Positions 4,041 to 60,890 of a stretch of DNA of 64,000 nucleotides are shown here, piece after piece. Position numbers and translations under genes: made by a program. A model generated the notes under the pieces. That model did not search any database. It was not told the origin of the DNA and saw only the letters and a program-made list of their open reading frames with translations. The stretch is from an uncultured bacterium (GTDB lineage Bacteria > Cyanobacteriota > Vampirovibrionia > Gastranaerophilales > Gastranaerophilaceae): the NCBI GenBank assembly GCA_902779645.1, contig CACZCH010000008.1, positions 1-64,000 on the forward strand, given 5' to 3'. Numbering within the stretch: the first letter of the stretch is position 1; every line of letters starts with the position of its first letter.

Positions 4041-4988
4041 TTATTTAATCAAGCAAGCAGAAAAATGGTTTGGTTCTTTTTCTTTTAATGTTGGTTGAGT
4101 GGAAGTGCATATTGTTTTGTCACAGAATTCACATCTCGGGTGGAATTTGCACCCATTTATGTCTTCCTGAATGCTTGGAGGTGCGCCTTCGATTGTTTTT
4201 AGTTTAAGAGCAGGATTCCTCGTTGGAAGAGAGTTCAAAAGAGCATTTGAATAAGGGTGAATAGGATTTTTGAAAAATTCTCCGGCAGGAGCTTCTTCTA
4301 CAATATGTCCCGCATACATTACGGAAATATTATCCGCATAGTTGCTTACAAGAGCCAAATCATGAGATATAAGAAGAATTGTCGTTCCGAATTCTTTTTT
4401 TATCTCATTAATCAAATCCATAATTTGTTTTTGAATTGTTACATCAAGAGCAGTTGTCGGTTCATCAGCAATAAGAAGTTCTGCTTTTGTTGCAAGCGCC
4501 ATAGCTATAATAATACGCTGTTTCATCCCGCCTGAAAATTCGTGGGGGTAGAAGTTTAACTTATTATCAATGTCGGGGATTTTAACCAAGTTCATAACTT
4601 CTTTGGCTTTTCTTCTCGCTTGATTGTGAGATACTTTTGAATGCGCTCGGATGGATTCTATTAGTTGATTCCCGATTGTATACAATGGATTCAAGGAAGT
4701 CATGGGGTCTTGCGGGATTAGCGCAATTTTGTTTCCTCTAAGCTCTCTCATTTGTTTTTCTTTATAATATAAAATGTTTTCCCCGTTAAAAATAATTTCC
4801 CCGCTTTTGATAATTGCAGATTTTGGCAAAAGTCTCATAACAGACATTGCTGTCATTGTTTTTCCACACCCTGATTCTCCTGCAAGAGCTCTCATCTCAC
4901 CTTTTTTAAGGGTTAAATTAACATCATACAATGCTTGATATTCACCGAAAAATAAGTTCAAATTTTTTATTTCTAACAAGGTTTCCAT
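4041..4988 (-). CDS. Oligopeptide/dipeptide ABC transporter ATP-binding protein (DppD/OppD type)
   Basis: The motor subunit for peptide (or nickel/opine) uptake ABC importers. The sequence shows Walker A GESGCGKT (about residues 37-44), Q-loop IPQDPMTSLNP, signature FSGGMKQR, Walker B LLIADEPTTALD and switch His in LLISHDLAL. It ends with the OppD-type C-terminal extension, including the Cys-rich block CKFHPRCEFCDKTIC. I chose ATG 4988 (315 aa), where the ABC domain begins. A TTG at 5024 is in frame, but GGAGGG at 5013-5018 falls inside that version and is too far (24 nt) from the ATG. No permease, binding protein or second ATPase lies nearby, so this is an orphan subunit here. Confidence 0.88.
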   Translation of the reverse strand: METLLEIKNLNLFFGEYQALYDVNLTLKKGEMRALAGESGCGKTMTAMSVMRLLPKSAIIKSGEIIFNGENILYYKEKQMRELRGNKIALIPQDPMTSLNPLYTIGNQLIESIRAHSKVSHNQARRKAKEVMNLVKIPDIDNKLNFYPHEFSGGMKQRIIIAMALATKAELLIADEPTTALDVTIQKQIMDLINEIKKEFGTTILLISHDLALVSNYADNISVMYAGHIVEEAPAGEFFKNPIHPYSNALLNSLPTRNPALKLKTIEGAPPSIQEDINGCKFHPRCEFCDKTICTSTQPTLKEKEPNHFSACLIK

Positions 4989-5096
4989 AATTTTAATTAT
5001 TGAGCTTTTATTCCCTCCAGTCAATAGACTGCAAGGAGTATAACCGATTAAATAAAAAATACGTATTTACAAAACTTAACAAAACAAACCCAAAGA

Positions 5097-5125
5097 GGCA
5101 ATTTTTTCTTTTTTCATGACTTTAT
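5097..5125 (+). promoter_or_regulatory. Conserved bipartite upstream box (copy 1)
   Basis: GGCAATTT at 5097-5104 and GACTTTAT at 5118-5125, start-to-start 21 bp, followed by TATATATACAGG. The same two blocks in the same register stand before the genes at 37870, 43722 and 48755. The downstream start codon is 54 bp from GACTTTAT. Confidence 0.6.
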
Positions 5126-5171
5126 ATATATACAGGATATCAAAAATAGTTACATAGTAAAGGAGAAATAT

Positions 5172-5360
5172 ATGGCAAGAGTTTTGATTTCAATGCCCGA
5201 AGATTTTTTGAGCAGAATTGACCAAGTTGCAGAAGGCGAAAATCGCACACGTTCTGAACTTATCAGAGAAGCACTGAGAAGCTATATGTACAAAAGCAGA
5301 GTAAAAGCAAGTACAATGGCTACAAAAAATGCAGCAATCCTTGAAGCCCTTTTGGATTAA
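5172..5360 (+). CDS. Ribbon-helix-helix (CopG/Arc-like) DNA-binding protein
   Basis: A 62-aa RHH regulator. The beta strand RVLISMPEDFL contacts DNA, and the helices (LSRIDQVAEGENRTRSELIREALRSYM when read with the turn) carry the classic NRTRSELIREAL helix of antitoxin-type and CopG proteins. AAAGGAGAAATAT precedes the ATG. Such proteins are often antitoxins, but no toxin frame follows. Instead the next 170 bp fold into four hairpins. It is one of four genes with the GGCAATTT/ACTTTAT box, so it may belong to that regulon. Function beyond sequence-specific DNA binding is not known. Confidence 0.85.
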   Translation: MARVLISMPEDFLSRIDQVAEGENRTRSELIREALRSYMYKSRVKASTMATKNAAILEALLD

Positions 5361-5367
5361 AGGAGTT

Positions 5368-5528
5368 AATCCCTAAAGGTTTCAGGCGAGAAGCTAGGGA
5401 AAAAGGAGACAAGCGATTATATACTTGCTTGTCGAAGAAAAAGACGGACATTACCAAAAAATGTACCGTCAGATTAAAAAGGTAAATCGGGAAGTTTAAA
5501 GCCGTTCTATATTAGAACGGCTTTCGTT
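5368..5528 (+). ncRNA. Candidate structured RNA with four hairpins, 3' of the RHH gene
   Basis: Four consecutive stems. (1) TCCCTA 5370-5375 with TAGGGA 5395-5400, stacked on GTTTC 5379-5383 with GAAGC 5390-5394 around loop AGGCGA. (2) GACAAGC 5408-5414 with GCTTGTC 5427-5433. (3) GACGG-ACAT 5443-5451 with ATGT-a-CCGTC 5461-5470. (4) A 12-bp terminator-like stem at 5498-5524 followed by CGTTTT. This could be a small RNA or a structured 3' UTR. An alternative reading is a short frame ending at TAA 5497-5499 (about 25-28 codons, LLVEEKDGHYQKMY...) with AGGAGA at 5404-5409 but only ATT/ATA/TTG starts. Confidence 0.5.
5498..5528 (+). terminator. Terminator hairpin after the RHH gene and RNA candidate
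   Basis: A perfect 12-bp stem, AAAGCCGTTCTA / TAGAACGGCTTT, with loop TAT. The trailing T run is short (CGTTTT). Confidence 0.75.
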
Positions 5529-5566
5529 TTGAGGAGGAGGTAAAGGGGTAAATAATAGGGAAGGAA

Positions 5567-6003
5567 AGAGTTCTTCTTTTTTAGAAAAAAGAAGCAAAAA
5601 ACTTTTGGTTTTACGTCGGCGGGAAGAATAATGAGCACAAAAATCACAATATTTGTACGTCCCGCCTCTTGAACAGCATTGAGAGATGGTTGGAAAGAAG
5701 TTTTAAATTGAATATTATATTGGCGGCGCAGGCAATTTTGCCTGTGCCTAGTAGTTTTTGATTGAATATATATGTTTTTTCATTTTTTTATATTCAACAA
5801 TCGAACATTGAAAGGGCAGTTTTGCAGTCTGCAAAACTGCCCCATAATCCTTTTATTAATATAAATTCTTTACCAATCTTTCAATGCTGTTCAAGAGGCG
5901 GGGTAATCAAGTCTTGTGATTATCATACATATTATTCTTCCCGCCGACGTAATACTAAAAGGTTTTCGCTTCCTTTTGCCCAAAAGGAAGAACCCCCATT
6001 CCC
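5567..6003. repeat. Composite foldback repeat element (copy I)
   Basis: Two inverted copies of the GTCGGCGGGAAGAATAA module (5611-5684 forward, 5883-5952 reverse) enclose about 200 bp that include a GC-rich palindrome, GGCGCAGGCAA/TTTTGCCTGTGCC (5725-5748). They are flanked outside by inverted ends of the type TTCCTTTTG...CAAAAGGAAGAACC. Inside each module GATAATCA...TGATTATC nests within GGCGGG...CCCGCC. The element ends 10 bp from the ilvB stop codon. It contains no gene. Confidence 0.75.
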
Positions 6004-6012
6004 TTTACCAAT

Positions 6013-7632
6013 CTATATCTCTTCAAACGAGTCTATCATAATATCGACGATTGCTGTTCCTTTGTGTTCGATAGCTTTGTTTATTGCAGGGATAAGTTCA
6101 TTTTTACCTGTTACTCTTATTGCAAACAAATCATACGCTTCTGCTATTTTTACAAAATCCGGATTTGTCATTTCAACTTGGTAACGATTATTATAGATTT
6201 TTTCCTGCATCTGGCGAACCATACCCAAATATCCGTTATTCATGATTATTATTTTTACCGGTATATTGTGTTCACGGCATGTTGCAAGTTCTTGAAGATT
6301 CATCTGAAAAGAGCCGTCACCGGTTATGTTCAGTATAAGATTGTCAGGGTTTGCAATGTGTGCGCCAATAGCTGCTGGAAGTCCGAATCCCATAGTTCCG
6401 AGTCCGCCTGAGGTGATAAATTTTCTCGGTTTATTAAAGTTATAGAACTGAGCTGTTAACATTTGGTGCTGTCCGACATCTGTTACAACAATCGGCTCAT
6501 ATTTTCTCGTGTATTCGCTAAGTGTCGCAAGTACATAAGACGAGTGCAGACATTTTGTGCAGTTTTCATCTGTTACAAATTCTTCTTTTATAGCTTTAAT
6601 TTGATTTAACCAATCAACTTCGGATTGATAACTACTCTTTTTATCTAAATATTGTTCAAGAAATTCCTTAACGTCCGCTTTTATTTGAAGCTCAAAGTCA
6701 TCTGATATCAGGTTCAGGTTAACGCTCACAATTTTTGCATTTGTACCTAATTTTGCTCTTTTGCATGTTGAACGGTCAGAAAATGCTGCGCCAAATGAGA
6801 TTAATAAATCGCAGTTATTTAGAACAGCGTTAGCCGTATGCGCTCCGTTTATACCAATCATACCCATGTATAGTTCATTTTCCGAGGGATAAATGCCGAT
6901 TCCCATCAGAGTTGAAACCAGTGGTAAATTGCAATTTCTAACTAACTCAGTAATCTCTTTTGATGCATTTGTTGCGCCTCCGCCTACTAAAATAAGCGGT
7001 TTTTTTGATTCTGATAACAGCTTATTCAATTTTTCTATTGCTTTAGAATAATCTTTAGTTTTAACATCGTTTTCAACAATATTAATAGTCTTGCTTTGGT
7101 ACTCGCTTTCAAGAATGTCTCTTGGAAGAGCAACAACAACAGGACCTTTTACACCGGTATCTGCAATAGTGAAAGCTTCTTCAATAATTTGTGATATATC
7201 ATCTTTTTTGGAAACCGTGTAAACTTTTTTTGCACACGATTCTGTCATAGAAGCGATATCAACCTGTTGGAAAATTTTACCTTTTTTGCTTGTGGTTGGT
7301 ACGTCTCCTGCAAGAACAACGAGTGGAGTAGAATCAGTGTATGCGTTAGAGATACCGGTAATAGTGTTGGTAAATCCAGGCCCTGAAGTTACAAGAACAA
7401 CTCCGACTTTTCCGCTTGTGCGGGCATAACCTTCTGCGGCATGGATTGCAGCTTGCTCATGTCTAACCAAATAGTGAGTAATTTTATTTGTGTAAGAAAG
7501 CTCATTATAAATGCTCAAAACAGCAGCTCCGGGGTAGCCGAAAATACTGTCTACACCTTGGCTTATAAGAGTATTAACAAGTGCTCCGGCGACAGTATTG
7601 GTTTGAGTTTTGTTTTGAACAAGAGTATCCAT
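6013..7632 (-). CDS. ilvB: Acetolactate synthase, large (catalytic) subunit
   Basis: A thiamine-diphosphate enzyme joining two pyruvates (or pyruvate and 2-oxobutyrate), the first common step of valine/leucine/isoleucine synthesis. Visible: GYPGAAVL, catalytic Glu in VRHEQAAIHAAEGYAR, central FAD-binding domain, and the ThDP motif GDGSFQMN...NNGYLGMVRQ. The usual Trp after VRQ (VRQWQ) is Met (VRQMQEK); that residue helps select 2-oxobutyrate. The usual C-terminal tail (NV-PMVP-G) is absent: the protein stops at MIDSFEEI beside a repeat element. ATG 7632 (539 aa) is preferred over TTG 7653. TATAAT lies 9 nt upstream of the ATG with no ribosome site. The regulatory subunit gene ilvN is not adjacent. 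Confidence 0.92.
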   Translation of the reverse strand: MDTLVQNKTQTNTVAGALVNTLISQGVDSIFGYPGAAVLSIYNELSYTNKITHYLVRHEQAAIHAAEGYARTSGKVGVVLVTSGPGFTNTITGISNAYTDSTPLVVLAGDVPTTSKKGKIFQQVDIASMTESCAKKVYTVSKKDDISQIIEEAFTIADTGVKGPVVVALPRDILESEYQSKTINIVENDVKTKDYSKAIEKLNKLLSESKKPLILVGGGATNASKEITELVRNCNLPLVSTLMGIGIYPSENELYMGMIGINGAHTANAVLNNCDLLISFGAAFSDRSTCKRAKLGTNAKIVSVNLNLISDDFELQIKADVKEFLEQYLDKKSSYQSEVDWLNQIKAIKEEFVTDENCTKCLHSSYVLATLSEYTRKYEPIVVTDVGQHQMLTAQFYNFNKPRKFITSGGLGTMGFGLPAAIGAHIANPDNLILNITGDGSFQMNLQELATCREHNIPVKIIIMNNGYLGMVRQMQEKIYNNRYQVEMTNPDFVKIAEAYDLFAIRVTGKNELIPAINKAIEHKGTAIVDIMIDSFEEI

Positions 7633-53410: not shown

Positions 53411-55105
53411 TTATAGTTTAATTAACTCGCGAACTTCTTTTCTTTTAACTTTTCTGGTAGTTGTTTTAGGAAGTTCATCTTTTGAGATTACAATATTTGT
53501 CGGACGTTTGTATTGAGCGAGTCTTTCGGAAAGTGATTTAACTTCAACTCTAATCATACGTTCAATATCTTCTTCAGAATATGAAGAATAAAGCTCTGGT
53601 TTTGGTACGATTACCGCAGTAACTTCTTCAGTACCGTCTTTTGCACCGAACGTACGAGAAGTACCCAAAACACAAACTTCAGATACATAATTACCTTTTT
53701 CTAAAACAGCTTCAACCTCTTCTGGGAATACTTTTTTACCACCGTTAAGTACAATCATGTTTTTGATTCTTCCCGTAATATACAAGTGATTAGTACTGTC
53801 TAATCTTGCAATATCGCCTGTATGCAGCCAGCCTTCTTCATCAATAACTTCTGCTGTCATTTCAGGCTGATTGTGATATCCCTTCATAACGGACGGGCCT
53901 CTGAGTAAAAGTTCTCCTGTTGATTTATCGATTTTTGCTTCAAAGTTTCTTAGCGGTCTGCCAACACAAGCCATATCATAACGTTTATCTGTGTTTACAC
54001 AAACAACGGGGCTTGTTTCAGATAACCCGTATCCTTGATAAACCATTATCCCGATTCTTTCAAAGAATTCTCCAACATCTAAATCAAGTGGTGCGCCTCC
54101 TGCAATACAGCCGAAGAATTTTCCGCCGAAATTATCGTGAATTTTTTTGAACAATAATCTTTTTATTTTGTATGAAGGAATGAATTTTGATGCGTGATAC
54201 ATTCCTTTGAATATCCATTGAGCAATTTTAGGTGCATTTTTTAGTTCTTTTTCTATACCTGCTTTTAAGAGTTTTAAGAATGCAGGTACGACAATCATAA
54301 ATTCAACGCCTTTTTCTTTCATAATATCGGTTATATCTTTTGGTTTAAGACTTGTTGTGTAATAAACGGTATGCCCAAAATTTAAGAATACTGAAAAACC
54401 AACCGTCATTTCAAAAAGGTGGTTCATCGGAAGAATTGAAAGCATTGTAATCTTTCTTCCGTCCGGCAATATTTCATTAATTGGGTCTGATAAGCATTCG
54501 AGTTGAGCGTTAACATTTTTATATGAAATCTCAACTCCTTTAGGAGCACCAGTTGTTCCTGATGTGTAAATAATTAATGCTGTGGATTTTGAGCTTCTTT
54601 GCCTCCATTTCGCATTATATTCTTCAGGCAAAGCGTAAATACTTGTGACTTCTGAGTTATAGAATACTTCATCTGTTAAAAGAATATGCTTAATTGACGG
54701 TATTGCTTTTTGCAATTTCAAAGCCGTTTCCAAATAATGTTGAGAAACAAACATAACAGTCGGTAAGCAATCCGAAAGAATATTTGTAAGTTCATATTCA
54801 GAAAGTTTAATATCCAAAGGAATAGTTACACAACCAGTAAGAGTTGATGCAAAAACGCATGCTCCGTATTCAGGTTTTGATTCCGAAAGAATTGCAACAC
54901 CTTCTCCTTTTTTGATATCAAGAGTTTCAATCATGTACTTTGCAATTTTTCTTGAAAATAGACCTAACCCTTTATAAGTAAGCTCTTTCCATCCATAACG
55001 ACTTCTGATACCAAGAGCTATACGATTTTCATAGTCTGCTGTTTTGGTTTCTATGTGGGATAAAATACCACTGCTTCTAAGTTCTTTTCTTTTTCTAAGA
55101 GCCAT
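53411..55105 (-). CDS. Long-chain fatty acyl-CoA/ACP synthetase (AMP-binding)
   Basis: An ANL-family enzyme of 564 aa activating fatty acids through an acyl-adenylate. The P-loop-like motif IIYTSGTTGAPKGVEIS, A5 YQGYGLSETSPV, A7 GWLHTGDIARLD, hinge A8 ITGRIKNMIVLNGGKKVFPEEVE and A10 catalytic Lys in PKTTTRKVKRKEV are all present. AAGGAGTAAAGGTTT precedes the ATG. It may recycle lipids, possibly those handled by the MlaA-type protein 3 kb away, although that is only a suggestion. Monocistronic, convergent with the dehydratase-like gene. Confidence 0.93.
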   Translation of the reverse strand: MALRKRKELRSSGILSHIETKTADYENRIALGIRSRYGWKELTYKGLGLFSRKIAKYMIETLDIKKGEGVAILSESKPEYGACVFASTLTGCVTIPLDIKLSEYELTNILSDCLPTVMFVSQHYLETALKLQKAIPSIKHILLTDEVFYNSEVTSIYALPEEYNAKWRQRSSKSTALIIYTSGTTGAPKGVEISYKNVNAQLECLSDPINEILPDGRKITMLSILPMNHLFEMTVGFSVFLNFGHTVYYTTSLKPKDITDIMKEKGVEFMIVVPAFLKLLKAGIEKELKNAPKIAQWIFKGMYHASKFIPSYKIKRLLFKKIHDNFGGKFFGCIAGGAPLDLDVGEFFERIGIMVYQGYGLSETSPVVCVNTDKRYDMACVGRPLRNFEAKIDKSTGELLLRGPSVMKGYHNQPEMTAEVIDEEGWLHTGDIARLDSTNHLYITGRIKNMIVLNGGKKVFPEEVEAVLEKGNYVSEVCVLGTSRTFGAKDGTEEVTAVIVPKPELYSSYSEEDIERMIRVEVKSLSERLAQYKRPTNIVISKDELPKTTTRKVKRKEVRELIKL

Positions 55106-58740: not shown

Positions 58741-60816
58741 TTAATAGACAGCCTTTTTGAATTCATCTATAAACTCTTTTCTGTGTAAAAATCCCAAATG
58801 TGAACCGCAGTTTATGCAGGTTAAATTTTCACCTGCAATTGTTTTAAGCTTCATAATTTGTTCTTTGTTCAAAAGATAGTCGTCAAAAGCTTCAAAAATT
58901 TTGTAGTTATTATTGTTTTTAAGATAATCCGACAAAACATACAAAGTTGCAAAATAGCAATCGGTATTGATATTTAATCCAAGATATTTTTCTGCATAAT
59001 CTTGATAACTTATATTATTAATCATCTTATACAAATCTGATTCTTTGTTTTTTGAGGGTTTTTCTATCATATAAATTATATCGGAAAGCTTTTGTCTCAT
59101 TATAAAATTCGTAATAATTTTAGCCTCTTCGTCACTAAACGGAAGTTCTTCCATTTTAAAATTTTTTTCATTTTTTAAATCATAAATTTGTAAAATTTTT
59201 GAAGCAGTTAATGCTGTTTTATCTTTGACTTTTGTATAATCTCCATCAAAGATTTCACCGTTTTTATCGATTTGAAGCAGTGCATATTTAAGTTCAATCG
59301 GTGGAGATACTGCTACAAATTTATTCACTCCCAAAAGGTTATCTTTTGATTCTTTTTCTGCAACGAAAAGAGAAGCTACGGCACCGAAAGAAGTCCCTAT
59401 AATTGTCTTTTCTTTCGGTTCACAACCGTGTTTTTCTTTAAGATTTTCCAATATTTTTGAACTTACAAGTCTTATATATTCAGAGTCTTTTTGCGGAAGT
59501 CCTGGAGCAAAACCGTCCGGCATGCTTTTTACAAATTCCCAATGAAAATGGCTCCCCTGCATAACAACAGAGAACCCTGCATCATAAAACATTTTTGCAA
59601 AAACAACAGAATGATGATTTCCGGCACCTTCTCCGATTGAGGGATAAAAAATTATCAAAGGAGCTGTTTTATCTTTTTGCAAAATGTATTTAAATCTGTA
59701 AGGTTCTTTATCTTGAGTTATTACAACCGAATCGGTTTTTATATGTTTAGCGAAACTTCTATTCCATATAGATAAATCATTCCAAATAGATTTATTAACT
59801 TCTTTGTTTTCGAAAAGCGCGGTTTTCATAGAGTCAATTACAGGGGTTTGAGTTTTGTAATCTTCAAGAATGATATCGGCTTTAAGCGCTTCTGCGAGAG
59901 GTAAAATATCGGACAATCCGGAAGCTTCTCCGGTTATTTCTGCAGTTGTCATAATTTTTTCTCCGTTATTTGTACCAAAGTTTTCAATCAACTTTTCTGC
60001 TTTTTCCATCTCACCGTTTTCAACAAGCTGTTTTTCTTCTAAAAGCAGTTCTTGCCTGTCATAGTTTGAGTTTCTAATGTAATTTTCTATGCCGAATAAC
60101 TTTTTGTGTATATCGTATGGGTCAGCATAATTTGTTTCAATCATTTCTGCCAAAGGTTGGATATAAGAAGTTCTGTTTAACATCAAGCCGAATTTAACAA
60201 TTGATACAACGGGGCTTGCAAGATAAACTGCAGGATCAAGGGCGGCTTCTAAAGCTCTTCCGCAAAGTGACCGAGGAGTGCAAGAATGCAGACAAGGCAT
60301 AACCAGATATGAGCCTGAATTCATTTTGCATTTACAGAGTGCCTGCTCCATATTTTCGTGTGTAGGTTTAACTTTGAATATCTTATCGGCAGGGTCAAAA
60401 AGACCGCCCAGTCCTATTGTAGAATTTGTTAAAAATCTGACTGTTTCGCGCTTTATACCTTCTCCGTCACGTTGAATGATACAGCTTGCGAGTCGTTTGG
60501 GGTATTCAATGTTATTGTATGCATCGCGAATTCTGTCTATTCCGAATTTTGGCATTACCGATGACCATATTATATGAATGGGTTTTGCGACCAATTTATT
60601 AAGTTTCATATTCAAGTTAAACATTTTTCTATTGAATTTTTCGTGCTTGTCTTCTCCCAAATACATTTTTGAATAATCGGGATATTTGTCTCCTTTAACT
60701 GTTTCAACAGCTTGAATATCAGCAGAAGCGGGGTTAATAACTAATTCGGAGTGTACAAATTCCGGATTAAATAAAAGCAGAAATACCAGTATTAATGATA
60801 TAAATTTTTTCTTCAA
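58741..60816 (-). CDS. MlaA-like outer-membrane lipid protein fused to an alpha/beta hydrolase
   Basis: 691 aa from a TTG start (60816) with AAGGAGAA upstream. A signal peptide (1-23, no lipobox Cys) is followed by an MlaA/VacJ domain (about 55-270: EKFNRKMFNLNMKLNKLVAK, TVRFLTNSTIGLGGLFDPA, GSYLVMP). A linker leads to an alpha/beta hydrolase domain (about 370-600) with nucleophile elbow IIGTSFGAVASLF (Ser about 475) and YPSIGEGAGNHH near the oxyanion site. MlaA removes misplaced phospholipids from the outer leaflet. The attached hydrolase could cleave them (phospholipase or esterase), which I infer from the fusion alone. No other mla genes are adjacent. Convergent with nhaC, 4 bp apart. Confidence 0.82.
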   Translation of the reverse strand: MKKKFISLILVFLLLFNPEFVHSELVINPASADIQAVETVKGDKYPDYSKMYLGEDKHEKFNRKMFNLNMKLNKLVAKPIHIIWSSVMPKFGIDRIRDAYNNIEYPKRLASCIIQRDGEGIKRETVRFLTNSTIGLGGLFDPADKIFKVKPTHENMEQALCKCKMNSGSYLVMPCLHSCTPRSLCGRALEAALDPAVYLASPVVSIVKFGLMLNRTSYIQPLAEMIETNYADPYDIHKKLFGIENYIRNSNYDRQELLLEEKQLVENGEMEKAEKLIENFGTNNGEKIMTTAEITGEASGLSDILPLAEALKADIILEDYKTQTPVIDSMKTALFENKEVNKSIWNDLSIWNRSFAKHIKTDSVVITQDKEPYRFKYILQKDKTAPLIIFYPSIGEGAGNHHSVVFAKMFYDAGFSVVMQGSHFHWEFVKSMPDGFAPGLPQKDSEYIRLVSSKILENLKEKHGCEPKEKTIIGTSFGAVASLFVAEKESKDNLLGVNKFVAVSPPIELKYALLQIDKNGEIFDGDYTKVKDKTALTASKILQIYDLKNEKNFKMEELPFSDEEAKIITNFIMRQKLSDIIYMIEKPSKNKESDLYKMINNISYQDYAEKYLGLNINTDCYFATLYVLSDYLKNNNNYKIFEAFDDYLLNKEQIMKLKTIAGENLTCINCGSHLGFLHRKEFIDEFKKAVY

Positions 60817-60890
60817 AATTATTCTCCTTTTAGTTCTAATTTATGAACTAAGAAGAAAAATTTTTATTATACAGTGAGGTAAATAAGTGG

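Follow-up and report, generated by a model that had tools for sequence, protein, structure and literature searches.

A gene joining an MlaA domain to an MlaY-like alpha/beta hydrolase in Gastranaerophilales, a probable natural fusion of MlaZ and MlaY

An open reading frame from an uncultured member of the Gastranaerophilales (contig CACZCH010000008.1, positions 1 to 64,000; the stretch analysed here, referred to as the window) raises the question of whether a phospholipid-extracting MlaA domain and a hydrolase truly share one polypeptide, and what such a protein would do. A first-pass annotation of this DNA had placed an MlaA domain at about residues 55–270, followed by a hydrolase with a GTSFGA nucleophile elbow, and suggested that misplaced outer-leaflet lipids are removed and cleaved on site, a task it saw divided between MlaA and PldA in other diderms. 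The features of the locus are compiled in Table 1.

Table 1. Features of the fusion gene and its product, in window coordinates
Feature	Position	Strand	Basis or remark
MlaA-hydrolase (MlaZ-MlaY-like) fusion gene	58741..60816	(-)	691 aa, TTG start
AGGAG, likely ribosome-binding site	60824..60828	(-)	7 bases 5′ of TTG, read directly
Predicted Sec signal peptide without lipobox, residues 1–23	60748..60816	(-)	cleavage site by eye
MlaA domain, residues 55–241	60094..60654	(-)	PF04333 E 7.1e-37; 5nup_F Z 18.8 over 200 residues
Variable linker, about residues 255–310	59887..60054	(-)	largely low model confidence, poorly conserved
Alpha/beta hydrolase (MlaY-like) domain, about residues 314–691	58744..59877	(-)	fold prediction and MlaY homology
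Ser476 codon, nucleophile in GTSFGA (474–479)	59389..59391	(-)	aligned with MlaY Ser187
Asp646 codon	58879..58881	(-)	aligned with MlaY Asp388
His673 codon	58798..58800	(-)	aligned with MlaY His415

The TTG start assigned earlier is credible given the AGGAG upstream of it, and we agree with that assignment. To limit its size, our reference alignment (A2) was restricted to 60 rows, i.e. the window protein plus 59 loci picked from 79 full-length ones, at 47–75% identity to the window protein; a hydrophobic N-terminal stretch was present in all 60. No lipoprotein signal of the E. coli MlaA type was found in the window protein, and lipobox-like strings occurred in three of 60 fusion ORFs and two of 60 A2 rows, two sets that overlap partly. 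The first-pass annotation was thus right about the missing lipobox but not in presenting it as an oddity, as MlaZ and other MlaA homologues lack one as well. Indeed, MlaA homologues that have no lipoprotein signal peptide, that of P. aeruginosa among them, are listed in a review (PMC11131202), so that the lack of one does not exclude membership in the MlaA family.

Pfam supports the earlier MlaA call, trimmed to the boundaries in Table 1, with a score of 127.4 bits against a cut-off of 25. Structure prediction, which had been recommended for both domains, agrees. AlphaFold run on the single sequence gave a pLDDT of 34 and was useless; using the 60-row alignment instead, we obtained a model with a pLDDT of 79.7 and a pTM of 0.78, a strongly confident hydrolase core, and values below 50 in the linker (residues 264–272 and 274–309). 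Comparison of the MlaA part of this predicted model to solved structures by VIA-align returned 5nup_F (Z 18.8, rmsd 3.0, 200 residues) and 8i8r_D (Z 16.9, 194 residues), and Foldseek likewise matched the model to MlaA structures (5nuo_B, TMt 0.76; 8i8r_D, TMt 0.78). Within the MlaA domain, Cys163 (window positions 60328–60330) was invariant in 60 of 60 A2 rows, which is odd for an exported protein; none of the three other cysteine positions checked was conserved.

The hydrolase half, previously recognised by its elbow motif, also proved sound: the predicted fold matches solved alpha/beta hydrolases, e.g. 5lcn_D (Z 19.4 over 240 residues by VIA-align) and many others by Foldseek, and the catalytic residues that a working enzyme of this kind needs besides the nucleophile, Asp646 and His673, are in place. 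Ser476, Asp646 and His673 were invariant in all 60 A2 rows. With both tools many esterase and thioesterase types were tied and no single family came out best, and therefore no sub-family is claimed from the fold. Pfam and NCBIfam gave weak esterase matches alone for the window protein (Pfam E 0.28), and a PDB profile search returned thermonuclease noise alone. Relatives were more telling, with the Pfam family Abhydrolase_1 matched in nine of the 20 scanned (best E 4.1e-7). In viral contigs, none of 79 pattern matches to the hydrolase was confirmed.

Might two genes have been misjoined during assembly, or might the hydrolase have decayed into an inactive appendage? We scanned 80 of the 186 confirmed loci in named genomes and found both domains within one ORF at 79 of them, the domain-fusion survey that had been called for. 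The remaining locus (L084) carries the parts on separate ORFs (4797–5291 and 5264–6922), as a misjoined or decayed gene might, likely through a frameshift or sequencing error. On the other side stand these 79 single ORFs, on which we reject a join, and a triad kept intact in every A2 row across the divergence given above. Misjoining or decay consequently has next to no probability, and the claim of a genuine one-polypeptide fusion stands.

The gene is widespread and patchy. The window protein was matched in 138 of 286 genomes of the order Gastranaerophilales, about half, with some of these matches partial or weak (e.g. 5.6e-6 in G130 and 5.6e-64 in G255). Among the 32 genomes listed for the organism's own genus, the fusion was found in 13, a proportion from which losses or transfers are frequent; the other 19 are mostly near complete. 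Being missing from about half of the order, including near-complete genomes of the same genus, the fusion is dispensable. Sampling the phylum, we detected an MlaA domain in 42 of 146 genomes, in all 42 within frames of 650–760 aa, and saw no free-standing MlaA in this sample. A profile of the hydrolase half matched 72 of 292 phylum genomes, 71 of them in frames of at least 650 aa; the last match (G133) has its halves on two contigs, leaving no free-standing hydrolase in the set. Where titles of the named loci (among the 80 of 186) give a lineage, they point mostly to Candidatus Gastranaerophilales or Melainabacteria; many read just ‘uncultured bacterium’, and the few that read Acinetobacter, Fusobacterium or Muribaculaceae are taken as mislabels. 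The 80 loci kept thus look to be of this lineage alone. In a quick tree of 59 fusions, agreement with the genus labels is the best attainable (21 changes for 22 groups), but the two genera of a second family lie apart, hence some transfer is possible.

Which proteins, then, represent the two halves in their separate state? PldA (OmpLA), an integral outer-membrane beta-barrel, shares the proposed outcome, i.e. destruction of outer-leaflet phospholipids, yet belongs to a family other than that of the alpha/beta hydrolase encoded here. A Pfam scan found no PldA domain (PF02253) in the window protein, none of 60 family genomes contained one (E. coli control positive), and the hydrolase half is instead collinear with MlaY. 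We therefore reject PldA as the separate partner and replace the MlaA–PldA pair of the first-pass annotation with MlaZ and MlaY. In P. aeruginosa we take these to be PA3239 and PA3238, respectively; the pair is reportedly the subject of a 2023 paper by Guest, Lee, Wang and Silhavy. The role proposed for MlaZ is to take phospholipids out of the outer leaflet and to hand them to MlaY (PMC11131202, PMC11977310, PMC12569750, PMC10474453), itself described as a phospholipase with the active site Ser187, His415 and Asp388 (PMC11977310). Together, MlaYZ is described as maintaining outer-membrane asymmetry (PMC11131202, PMC11977310), in a species that also possesses the full MlaA-MlaC-MlaBDEF path (PMC11977310). 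MlaYZ reportedly also rescues a pldA mutant of E. coli (PMC11977310).

A tblastn search with the hydrolase half against a collection of 72,556 plasmid records yielded five records at E 1 or better, with a MlaY homologue at E 2e-10. Four were kept, one Fusobacterium vincentii replicon and three P. aeruginosa plasmids; a Lactiplantibacillus record was discounted (short match, E 0.2). Using the Pseudomonas protein as query added two Skermanella plasmids, each with a hydrolase gene followed by a VacJ gene. Pairwise identity between the hydrolase half and MlaY is low, 21–24% (for a single pair with a P. aeruginosa homologue, 21% over 349 columns at E 1e-17). Two of the P. aeruginosa plasmids carry an annotated alpha/beta hydrolase gene and, after 3 bases, one for a VacJ-family lipoprotein; the third has an annotated VacJ gene and, with no feature assigned to it, a hydrolase match that falls into two pieces. 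By homology and gene context rather than by locus tag, we presume these plasmid genes to be the MlaYZ locus. In the Fusobacterium record, the hydrolase ORF overlaps the MlaA ORF. An MlaA gene thus directly follows the MlaY homologue in all six records of the collection that have one, which, as three near-identical Pseudomonas, two close Skermanella and one Fusobacterium record, count as three independent lineages.

The catalytic positions coincide. In one Pseudomonas protein (L165), positions 187, 388 and 415 hold S, D and H, which the alignment places opposite S476, D646 and H673 of the window protein. Across 64 rows, comprising 59 fusions and five paired hydrolases (L018, being truncated, was excluded), the serine was found in 64, the aspartate in 63 and the histidine in 64; the sole exception is a Glu at the acid position of the Fusobacterium row. 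As to the surroundings of the unfused pairs, a TamB-domain gene comes next in both Skermanella records (L172, L173), and one Pseudomonas pair (L167) lies near genes for a patatin-like phospholipase and a lipid A lauroyl acyltransferase. The Fusobacterium record (L164, NZ_CP084075.1) is 2.1 Mb long, is labelled a plasmid and holds a large DNA-polymerase-like ORF (named by eye); it is probably a mislabelled chromosome.

The window protein and MlaYZ thus resemble each other in pairing an MlaA-family extractor with an alpha/beta-hydrolase lipase whose chain is collinear and whose triad positions are the same. They differ in architecture: MlaYZ is encoded by two adjacent genes in the order hydrolase–MlaA, whereas the window gene encodes one polypeptide in the order MlaA–hydrolase. 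In F. vincentii and Skermanella, the same two families are adjacent but unfused, and there the Fusobacterium MlaA has a lipobox (LISC) and the Skermanella hydrolases have AGC-type lipoboxes, unlike the window protein. The ancestry of the MlaA part was addressed with a tree of 33 domains, made up of 16 fusions (from the 60), four hydrolase-paired MlaA domains and 13 others (12 chosen from 66 plasmid-collection records, plus Aeromonas). The fusions grouped together (100/100), with a long branch leading to them, and the hydrolase-paired MlaA domains formed a group of their own (100/99); a clade joining the two was not recovered, yet was not rejected either (p-AU 0.473). The reversed domain order is compatible both with descent from MlaZ and with a fresh origin from another MlaA.

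What the MlaA domain could serve depends on the remaining envelope machinery. Omp85 and LpxB were each found in 29 of 30 genomes of the family samples, from which these organisms should have an outer membrane with LPS. LolA gave two weak matches in 60 family genomes and none in the organism's own, and a Lol pathway is likely absent from the lineage. The first-pass annotation had advised looking for mlaBCDEF elsewhere in the genome. Part of the set is there: MlaE, an ABC ATPase (named by eye) and a 451-aa MlaD lie in a row in the own genome, which also holds a second MlaE and a short MlaD (L174:16932–17594). MlaC (PF05494), in turn, was found in none of 40 family genomes, the own one included, with a positive E. 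coli control. MlaE and MlaD were each present in 97 of 97 own and related genomes of the family sample, so retrograde transport may coexist with the fusion. One relative has a short MlaD-type gene (L062:5312–5965) about 1.5 kb from its fusion gene. Compared with E. coli MlaA, with which it has the PF04333 domain and the fold in common, the window MlaA is thus fused to an enzyme, lacks a lipobox and occurs in sampled genomes without MlaC; P. aeruginosa, for its part, has the MlaC path besides MlaYZ.

Since none of the sampled genomes has MlaC, the MlaA domain has no known carrier to serve, and two options are therefore live: the lipids could be cleaved on the spot, or the domain could be linked to the long MlaD. 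In the latter case, the MlaA domain would feed MlaEFD, and the hydrolase would act on another acyl ester (candidates being a lysolipid, a thioester, lipid A or a glycolipid) or as a transacylase. The own-genome MlaE-MlaF-MlaD cluster resembles the three-component, Veillonella-type MlaEFD, whose long MlaD is proposed to be a transenvelope bridge (PMC10665443), and the hydrolase fold, tied among many esterase and thioesterase types, would allow such substrates. According to its description, however, that system has neither MlaA nor MlaC (PMC10665443), and here an MlaA domain is present. Moreover, the only sequence-level relative we found is MlaY, a described phospholipase (PMC11977310), and MlaE and MlaD also occur in genomes without the fusion. 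We regard this bridging role as improbable.

The same chemistry could also serve another purpose than asymmetry, in that the MlaA domain would import host, dietary or bile-exposed lipids at the cell surface in the gut and the lipase would free their fatty acids for use. Many named relatives stem from rumen, faeces or gut samples, and the patchiness of the gene inside a genus is what one would expect of an accessory trait in nutrition. On the same strand, 3.6 kb from the fusion, a gene for an AMP-binding acyl-activating enzyme (53411–55105) might serve to recycle the freed fatty acids; however, no conserved gene neighbour or operon partner of the fusion was seen at 100 loci, and its proximity may be chance. 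The known unfused form, furthermore, is described as maintaining outer-membrane asymmetry (PMC11131202, PMC11977310). Lipid scavenging thus appears an unlikely purpose of the protein.

By analogy to MlaYZ, and judging from sequence and predicted model, the gene is probably a natural MlaZ–MlaY fusion, in which the MlaA domain extracts phospholipids and the tethered lipase cleaves them in place. The protein would be exported across the inner membrane by its Sec signal, and its MlaA domain, as in other members of the family, would sit in the inner leaflet of the outer membrane and take up phospholipids that have strayed to the outer leaflet. These would descend through the MlaA channel to the periplasmic lipase, which would cut their acyl esters by means of the Ser-Asp-His triad; owing to the tether, no carrier would be needed at the hand-off. 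We infer its place in the outer membrane, the lipids it acts on and the directness of the hand-off from the relatives, and the proposed MlaZ–MlaY pathway of extractor and lipase backs, as the likely logic, the extraction and on-site cleavage suggested at first pass. In support of this reading are the fused ORF, both predicted folds, the conserved triad, the homology to MlaY and the gene neighbourhood of the unfused forms. Against it speak the 21–24% identity, the Fusobacterium Glu, the reversed domain order, the patchiness, the retention of MlaE and MlaD, and an MlaA domain that does not clearly group with MlaZ.

That an MlaA-family extractor works with a lipase is already known. What the present case adds is that the two are fused, that the fusion occurs in gut relatives of cyanobacteria without MlaC, and that it is conserved widely though patchily; we found no report of such a fusion in an open-access library of papers, a scope that the original MlaYZ paper falls outside. 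An MlaA domain in this lineage is unexpected, as a survey of 1083 genomes (three species per order) states MlaABC to be ‘totally absent in diderm Terrabacteria’ (PMC10665443). If the lineage is counted with the Cyanobacteria, as is usual, the fused MlaA is an exception to that survey.

When two proteins encoded side by side elsewhere are found fused, this strongly indicates that they act together. The fusion therefore lends support to the proposed hand-off from MlaZ to MlaY that is separate from P. aeruginosa genetics, and as a single polypeptide it would allow extraction and cleavage to be tested jointly in E. coli K-12. More tentatively, a lineage without MlaC, PldA and a clear Lol pathway might keep its outer membrane asymmetric at least partly by destroying stray phospholipids instead of returning them, with one outer-membrane polypeptide passing each of them from an MlaA pore straight to a tethered lipase. 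If so, no MlaA would have been described in diderm Terrabacteria before this one, and the hand-off, until now a proposal, would be on physical display.
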